From Halostella limicola (GTDB lineage: Archaea > Halobacteriota > Halobacteria > Halobacteriales > Natronoarchaeaceae), in contig NZ_RCDI01000008.1 in NCBI RefSeq assembly GCF_003675875.1, positions 1 to 63,818 of the forward strand: a stretch of 63,818 bases of DNA, in the 5' to 3' direction. Positions 18,177 to 19,498 of this stretch are shown here, one piece after another. Position numbers and translations under genes: made by a program. Under the pieces are notes generated by a model. It saw only the letters and a program-made list of their open reading frames with translations. It was not told the origin of the DNA and did no database searches. How positions within the stretch are numbered: position 1 is the first letter of the stretch; the number at the start of each line of letters is the position of its first letter.

Positions 18177-18752
18177 ATGAGGGGCGCGCCCGATCACTGC
18201 ACGTCCTGCGGCGGGGCGCTCTCCGGCGTCGACCCGCCGACCGTCTTCCGGTGCGACGCCTGCGGGGAGTACGCGTTCCGCAACCCCACGCCGAACGCCC
18301 GGGTCGTCGTCCTCGACGGCGACAGCGTCCTGCTCGTCGAGATAGCCGACGAGGCACGCATCGAGGACCCGCCGTACGACGCCGAGAGCGAGTGGATGAC
18401 CCCGGGCGGCGCGGTGGAGGTCGGTGAGCACCCCGACGAGGCGGCCGCGCGGGAACTGGCCGAGGAGACGGGACTGGTCGCCGACCCGGACGCGCTGGAA
18501 CTGTTCGACGCCGTCACCCGAGAGGTGGTCGAGGACACACACGCGCTGGTGCTCCTGTACGCTGCGGACCGCGCGGACGTCGCCGGGACGCCCGCCGCAG
18601 CCTCGGACGCCGCCGACGCCTGGTTCTGGCACCCGGACGAACTCGCGGCCGCGGACGCGACGTTCCGCGACCTCCACGACGAACCACGTCGCTACCGGGA
18701 TCTGGAAGGGTTCGTCGCGGCGGCACGGGCGGCGTTAGAGGCCGACGAGTGA
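18177..18752 (+). CDS. Nudix hydrolase with N-terminal zinc ribbon
   Basis: 191 residues. The first 32 residues form a zinc ribbon (CTSCG ... CDACGE), as in NudC-like and haloarchaeal Nudix proteins. The Nudix box G-x5-E-x7-R-E-x-x-E-E-x-G-L is complete (residues about 81-103, GGAVEVGEHP ... RELAEETGL), so it should hydrolyse a nucleoside diphosphate derivative. Substrate cannot be read from the sequence. Its 3' end opens into the palindrome-rich gap. Confidence 0.9.
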   Translation: MRGAPDHCTSCGGALSGVDPPTVFRCDACGEYAFRNPTPNARVVVLDGDSVLLVEIADEARIEDPPYDAESEWMTPGGAVEVGEHPDEAAARELAEETGLVADPDALELFDAVTREVVEDTHALVLLYAADRADVAGTPAAASDAADAWFWHPDELAAADATFRDLHDEPRRYRDLEGFVAAARAALEADE

Positions 18753-19225
18753 CGAACGAAAACGGCCGGGAGCGCGGCGCGAGGCCGAGCGCCGAGCGCC
18801 GTGCGACTCGGGGAAGGGCAGGTGCGCTGCAAGCAGTGTACCCGCGAGTGAGCGGAGCGAACGAGCGTTCGAAAATCGCTCCGCGATTTTCGCAGCCCAC
18901 GAGAAGTGCTCCGCACTTCTCGGGACGGTCCGAGGAACCCTCGAAGGAGCGAAGCGACTGAGGGGGTGACGACACGTCTTCACGAGCGAAGCGAGTGAAG
19001 GCTCGGAAGGCGCTCTCGCCTCCCGGTGATTTTGGTCGAGCTTTTGCCGAGCCTCGCGAGCGTGTCCGCCATCGGCGGACCGCTCGCGTCGCGTGATTCG
19101 AGACGGCGAAGCCGTCTCGTCATCTCGGAAGACCTGCGGTCTTCCGACGAGTCCGCAGGAGCGAAGCTCCTGCGAGATCACGGAAATCGCTTCGCGATTT
19201 CCGAACGACAGCGCAAAAGCTCGTC
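18753..19225. repeat. Palindrome array in a 473-bp convergent gap
   Basis: No gene fits here. Between 18870 and 19203 are nine different inverted repeats, mostly perfect and mostly with 3-nt loops: 18870-18892 (10-bp stem, loop TCC), 18900-18922 (10, TCC), 18931-18943 (5, AAC), 18978-19000 (6+2, GAA), 19055-19088 (8+7 with one bulge, ATC), 19099-19119 (9, GAA), 19125-19147 (10, TGC), 19154-19174 (9, GAA) and 19181-19203 (10, TTC). The last four start 26, 29 and 27 bp apart. Stem sequences differ from one another, so they are not copies of one repeat. Both flanking genes end here (tail to tail). Confidence 0.85.
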
Positions 19226-19498
19226 TCACATCCCGAGGTCGCCCGCGCCCTCCGGAATCGGCAGGTCGTTCACGCCGACGCCCAGCAGCTCCGCGGCGTG
19301 GTCGAGCGCCATGTCGAACCCGTAGTAGCGTTCGAGTTCGTCGCCGTCGGCCTCGGGCCGGACCTTCAGCATGGCGTACCCCTCGACGTTCTGGGCGACG
19401 GCAGCGGTCCGCCCGTCGCGCTCGAACTCCAGGACGCGCTCGGTCTCCGTCTCGTAGTAGCGGGCGGTGACGCCGTTCGCGGTCGCCGTCTCGGTCAT
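19226..19498 (-). CDS. Conserved haloarchaeal protein, unknown function (DUF7111-like)
   Basis: 90 residues, alpha/beta, acidic, without membrane segments. It begins MTETATANGVTARYYETETE and ends GVNDLPIPEGAGDLGM. An upstream Met at 19522 would add eight residues but is less likely, since the chosen start fits the protein's natural beginning. No catalytic motif is seen. It is convergent with the Nudix gene across the palindrome array and divergent from the PadR-like gene (101 bp). Confidence 0.75.
   Translation of the reverse strand: MTETATANGVTARYYETETERVLEFERDGRTAAVAQNVEGYAMLKVRPEADGDELERYYGFDMALDHAAELLGVGVNDLPIPEGAGDLGM

Follow-up and report, generated by a model that had tools for sequence, protein, structure and literature searches.

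A dispersed, stop-codon-anchored element of haloarchaea with conserved pairing arms and exchangeable hairpins, a probable bidirectional terminator

Why is the gap between two convergent genes of Halostella limicola filled with short palindromes? The window analysed here is a stretch of 63,818 nt (contig NZ_RCDI01000008.1, positions 1–63,818), in which a plus-strand NUDIX gene, ending at 18752, converges on a minus-strand DUF7111 gene, ending at 19226. Within 18870–19203 (334 bp) of this gap lie six perfect palindromes with stems of 9–10 bp and loops of 3 nt (Table 1). A preliminary description had counted nine palindromes, most of them perfect; these six stand, and the remaining three have shorter stems or imperfect pairing: the one at 19064–19080 (7 bp, loop ATC) caps a longer hairpin with bulges, at 19055–19088, and another, at 18978–19000, has 8 of 10 pairs. 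The spacing of 26, 29 and 27 bp given there for the starts of the last four agrees with the coordinates. Simulated sequence of the same composition yielded 0.009 stems of at least 9 bp with a 3-nt loop (3,000 runs, at most one stem per run), compared with the six observed, and the rest of the window (63.5 kb) holds three, confirming that the array is not a product of chance. It is not a CRISPR array either, as identical repeats, or near-identical direct repeats with spacers, are absent, nor is it a protein gene, as open reading frames crossing the gap (18752–19226) match no Pfam family above the cut-off.

The array is one enlarged minus-strand copy of a dispersed element, which has gained extra cassettes. 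Read on its own strand, the element consists of a stop codon, 0–6 nt, CGACCTTTTGC, at least one hairpin, GCAAAAGCTCGACCAAAA and further hairpins; the scaffold obtained from aligned clusters runs from the stop codon through CGACCTTTTGCGCTG, hairpins and CTCGGCAAAAGCTCGACCAAAATC to extra hairpin modules. The left arm, CGACCTTTTGC, pairs with the right arm, GCAAAAGCTCG, apart from a conserved C–C mismatch, and the two form a base stem (P1). The window's genome carries ten copies, full or partial. In one genome, ten copies with a near-constant scaffold hold several unrelated stems of similar length. The stems of the window array are indeed unrelated to each other, as first described, but five of the seven listed reappear in other copies, in this genome or in related ones. 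Hairpins were counted over 1.2 of the 4.1 Mb of the window's genome, where five other clusters of at least three such hairpins were found, compared with none in three simulations. Intergenic stems with 3-nt loops numbered 25 at 9 bp or longer (2.2 expected) and 12 at 10 bp or longer (0.6 expected), and 4-nt loops were enriched less (9 versus 1.7 expected at 9 bp; 3 versus 0.7 at 10 bp).

Table 1 Parts of the element copy in the window and neighbouring genes (loops of perfect palindromes are given as listed for the array; element-strand loops are marked as such)
Feature	Positions	Strand	Remarks
DUF7111 gene; its stop codon (19226–19228) anchors the element	19226–19498	−	PF23423, E = 5.8e-47
P1 base stem, left arm CGAGCTTTTGC (family consensus CGACCTTTTGC), with a T4 tract	19213–19223	−	2 nt after the DUF7111 stop
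Perfect hairpin, 10 bp, loop TTC (element strand GAA)	19181–19203	−	same stem at C2:340206 and C2:806574
Perfect hairpin, 9 bp, loop GAA (element strand TTC)	19154–19174	−	
Perfect hairpin, 10 bp, loop TGC (element strand GCA)	19125–19147	−	
Perfect hairpin, 9 bp, loop GAA (element strand TTC)	19099–19119	−	stem recurs in this and other genomes, loop GAA or TTC
Central bulged hairpin GCGAGCGGTCCGCC-GAT-GGCGGACACGCTCGC	19055–19088	−	common to many Halostella copies
P1 right arm and second A-tract GGCAAAAGCTCGACCAAAATC, most conserved motif	19028–19048	−	the other strand has two T4 tracts
Right module, imperfect hairpins (18978–19000 and others)	18970–19027	−	poorly conserved
Right-module perfect hairpin, 10 bp, loop TCC	18900–18922	−	with the 18870–18892 hairpin, recurs in L244 and L247
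Right-module perfect hairpin, 10 bp, loop TCC	18870–18892	−	
Outer end module GGCCGGGAGCG...ACTCGGGGAAGGGCAGG (plus-strand letters)	18764–18822	−	identified by eye; also alone after genes in other families
NUDIX gene, convergent neighbour	18177–18752	+	missing from this interval in four other Halostella species

With up to two mismatches allowed, the right motif was present in 89 of the 391 haloarchaeal genomes searched, and a reversed control pattern gave one match. Both arms were present in 102 copies, nearly all of those fetched. A T6/A6 or related subfamily with the same architecture was seen at G000:C2 139360–140394 (the radA end), 152564–153163 and 176403–176576 of the window's genome; further T6/A6 copies were found among gene ends that bear T4 and A4 tracts, whose flanks share a sequence bias (paired-flank permutation test). 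A virus or phage origin was rejected, as the exact 20-nt motif was not found in viral contigs and blastn gave no match in phages; plasmids gave only four short partial matches, and one short plasmid match lay inside a TnpB gene. In several families a conserved stretch, GTTAGTGTTCCGGGCGTACATTACGACC, precedes copies of the element (L189, L192, L193, L197, L198, L200); it had no Rfam match. We found no description of the scaffold in the open-access literature, and an earlier one is possible in subscription papers, which lay mostly outside the search.

The element sits at gene ends. Counting open frames of at least 60 codons, it starts 0–6 nt past a stop codon in 55 of the 99 testable copies and within 12 nt in 56, and at shifted control positions only 1–12 of about 99 follow such a stop. 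According to a simple codon-usage caller made for this analysis, whose calls are approximate, the neighbouring genes are divergent in 8 of 90 cases, some of which look like mis-calls or lie near tRNAs. Hairpin density was highest in convergent gaps (0.38 per kb), 3.5 times that in divergent ones (0.11 per kb). One copy (L256, genome G184) begins 9 nt after a tRNA. It is the only one of three G184 copies that directly follows a tRNA gene; the other two (L252 and L254) come just after duplicated, partial 3′ ends of a tRNA, which lie about 140 and 110 nt beyond the intact gene. Many gene ends of the window's genome carry no element, and CTTTTGC is no general post-stop terminator word there, being found at 5 of 630 gene ends, three of which are the element itself.

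The strongest evidence comes from orthologous sites (the ends of ilvE, radA and ndh), where structure has been kept while sequence was replaced. Among 30 distinct arm pairs, P1 shows C–G/G–C, G–C/C–G and A–T swaps, a covariation partly shaped by the search pattern, and some copies carry unpaired changes. At ilvE, the element is present in 6 of 30 genomes; the arms in three of them (G013, G040 and G057) read CCACCTTTTT...AAAAATCTGG, and those in G041 have changed fully in sequence, to CGAAATTTTGC...GCAAAATTTCG, and still pair. The radA end is occupied in 9 of 30 genomes, including all five Halostella species, whose arms and hairpins differ there; arms that have changed fully still pair. The window's genome has a T6/A6 version at this site, and in G057 GAAC pairs with GTTC around the mismatch. 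The ndh end carries the element in each of the five Halostella species and in none of the nine genomes compared from other genera; its arms and hairpins differ among these species and still pair, even where the arms have changed fully (G003, CGAACTTTTTCCCGG/CCGGGAAAAACTTCG). The hairpins between the conserved arms are exchanged wholesale, both across species at one gene and across copies in one genome. Binding sites for a dimeric protein, one of the earlier guesses, fit poorly, because the sequence of the stems varies while their pairing is kept. The outer end module, as GGCCGGGAGCG...CTCGGGGAAGGGCAGG, was also seen alone after ilvE in other haloarchaeal families (L301, L303 and L304), and so may represent a second family of dispersed repeats.

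Could the element instead be a selfish, REP- or MITE-like mobile sequence that transposes, settles after stop codons, where it does little harm, and has no host function? This would account for the ten copies on a nearly identical scaffold seen in one genome, and at the DUF7111 site the CGACCTTTTGC-type element is confined to the window's genome among those compared, with a T5/A5 look-alike in Salinibaculum. In four other Halostella species these neighbours have no NUDIX gene between them, so the gene may have been acquired along with the array. Some hairpin cassettes do move, because a related two-hairpin unit of about 51 bp (TCAGAACnC-N3-GnGTTCTGA-5nt-TCGGrAATCGC-N3-GCGATTyCCGA), which is intergenic at C2:340179 and on C4 (L006), has also been inserted, without breaking the frame, into the kae1-bud32 fusion gene in the window's genome and in its nearest relative, G002 (L319, at G000:C2 about 902381–902451, and L320). 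There it adds about 20 residues (GRESHGDSRAHQNSKSSEN); it is restricted to these two sister species, being absent from ten other genomes (G001, G003–G008 and three more), and in the window's genome it is flanked by a 6-bp direct repeat, CGACGG, a possible duplication. The earlier idea of palindromic mini-elements was in this respect partly right. For the stop-codon element itself, however, we found neither a transposase nor a fixed target site nor a clean target duplication, and its stems are too different to be copies of one sequence. Moreover, radA and ndh are occupied in five of five Halostella species despite the turnover of sequence, and neutral insertions do not decay in this way. We therefore consider a purely selfish element unlikely.

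A second group of alternatives concerns the molecule in which the hairpins form. Folded as single-stranded DNA, the element strand of the array gives a base stem that closes a five-hairpin multibranch loop (z = −8.1); folded as RNA it also scores strongly (z = −8.2), but the base stem is absent from the minimum-energy fold. Among 80 distinct perfect element hairpins with 3-nt loops, which come from related copies, 52 have GNA or TNC loops, compared with about 12% expected. GNA loops closed by C–G belong to the class of very stable DNA mini-hairpins known from the d(GCGAAGC) literature, and GCGAAGC mini-hairpins have been used for their stability in published work. Pairs other than Watson–Crick comprise five G–T and nine A–C, small numbers that give no sign of the G–U tolerance of RNA. 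The strong RNA fold and the position within 15 nt of the stop codon, shared with E. coli REPs, some of which modulate translation termination (PMC12306157), would suit a structured 3′ untranslated region or a small non-coding RNA that, for example, protects mRNA ends or modulates the termination of translation. No Rfam score reaches its gathering threshold, though, the nearest being GA-cis with 21.8 versus 34.7 bits; the 3-nt loops, mostly GNA or TNC, are not RNA tetraloops; loops occur in both orientations; and a G–U excess is missing, on the same small numbers. A structured RNA, as first suggested, is thus possible and gained no positive support, and we regard it as quite improbable.

The loop class and the missing G–U bias favour, without proving, the DNA cruciforms of the preliminary description. 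Such cruciforms lead to a variant in which P1 and its GNA- or TNC-capped hairpins would extrude on both strands and block RNA polymerase from either side, as a terminator or insulator made of DNA; only shape and T/A tracts would be under selection, so that template switching could rewrite the stems and copies could swap them. To this variant we give a small chance. Could mutation alone suffice, with template switching making and perfecting hairpins in unconstrained intergenic DNA? Perfect arms are consistent with this, as are inverted loops, the same stem being found with loop GAA or TTC and with TGC or GCA; homogenized arms and inverted spacers have been described as what template switching leaves behind (PMC8604942, PMC8794818). 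Mutation alone nevertheless leaves the conserved arms, the anchoring to stop codons and the order-wide scaffold unexplained, and we judge it very improbable. Template switching is likely to be a part of the mechanism, not the whole.

Terminators were dismissed in the preliminary description, yet the conserved T-tract right at gene ends makes a terminator role the best reading. Judging from position and T-tracts, the element is probably a bidirectional T-tract terminator or insulator with exchangeable hairpins. Transcription of the upstream gene would be stopped by the T-tract directly after its stop codon (CGACCTTTT), and transcription from the opposite side by two T-tracts on the other strand (GATTTTGGTCGAGCTTTTGCC), so that a polymerase moving into the base stem would meet T4–6 once if it comes from the left and twice if it comes from the right. 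The two ends pair as P1, enclosing one or more hairpins that would reinforce termination or stall RNA polymerase. Selection would act on the T/A tracts and on the foldback, not on the sequences of the stems, so hairpin cassettes are exchanged, presumably by recombination between copies, and template switching at DNA hairpins would keep the arms perfect and invert the loops. In Haloferax, terminators are stretches of T, and in tests termination reached 95% with T5C and 59% with a hairpin (PMC7237163). Several points count against this reading. Many gene ends lack the element, eight copies have divergent neighbours by the gene calls, and the P1 covariation owes something to the search pattern and is broken in some copies by unpaired changes. 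In addition, the T-tract comes before the hairpins, and does so on both strands, unlike in a bacterial intrinsic terminator, where a hairpin is followed by a run of T; and nine hairpins are more than a simple terminator needs.

Present just after core genes (radA, ndh and ilvE) in several haloarchaeal families, the element offers a testable natural case of regulatory DNA whose fold is conserved and whose sequence is not. A composite two-sided terminator would join the few known archaeal termination signals, and the part of template switching in keeping hairpins perfect can be tested directly within one genus.

How does the element compare with known systems? Like haloarchaeal T-tract terminators, it has a T stretch just downstream of genes, and there, too, a hairpin can terminate (PMC7237163); unlike in those, its T-tract pairs with a downstream A-tract around the hairpins, and T-tracts face both ways. 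Bacterial clusters of hairpin terminators also place several adjacent hairpins after stop codons (PMC8355165), but they form no dispersed family with a shared scaffold and belong to another RNA polymerase and termination system. The PATEs and other small mobile repeats of Haloquadratum are likewise haloarchaeal, non-coding and palindrome-bearing (PMC3119063), but in PATEs the terminal boundaries are related to IS605-type transposons, and anchoring to stop codons is not described for them. With respect to MITEs, P1 is an inverted repeat, though it does not lie at both outer ends of the element, and a possible 6-bp duplication is seen only at the kae1 unit. The closest kind is the REP elements of bacteria (REP/BIME/REPIN), which are dispersed extragenic short-loop palindromes, often near stop codons and sometimes within open reading frames (PMC3733652, PMC12306157). 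The element shares their many extragenic palindromic copies but lacks the conserved stem that, together with a GTAG or CGTC tag, defines a REP family; we noticed no such tag at its conserved ends. The haloarchaeal element instead conserves its flanking arms and T/A tracts, a near-constant scaffold around unrelated, freely varying stems.
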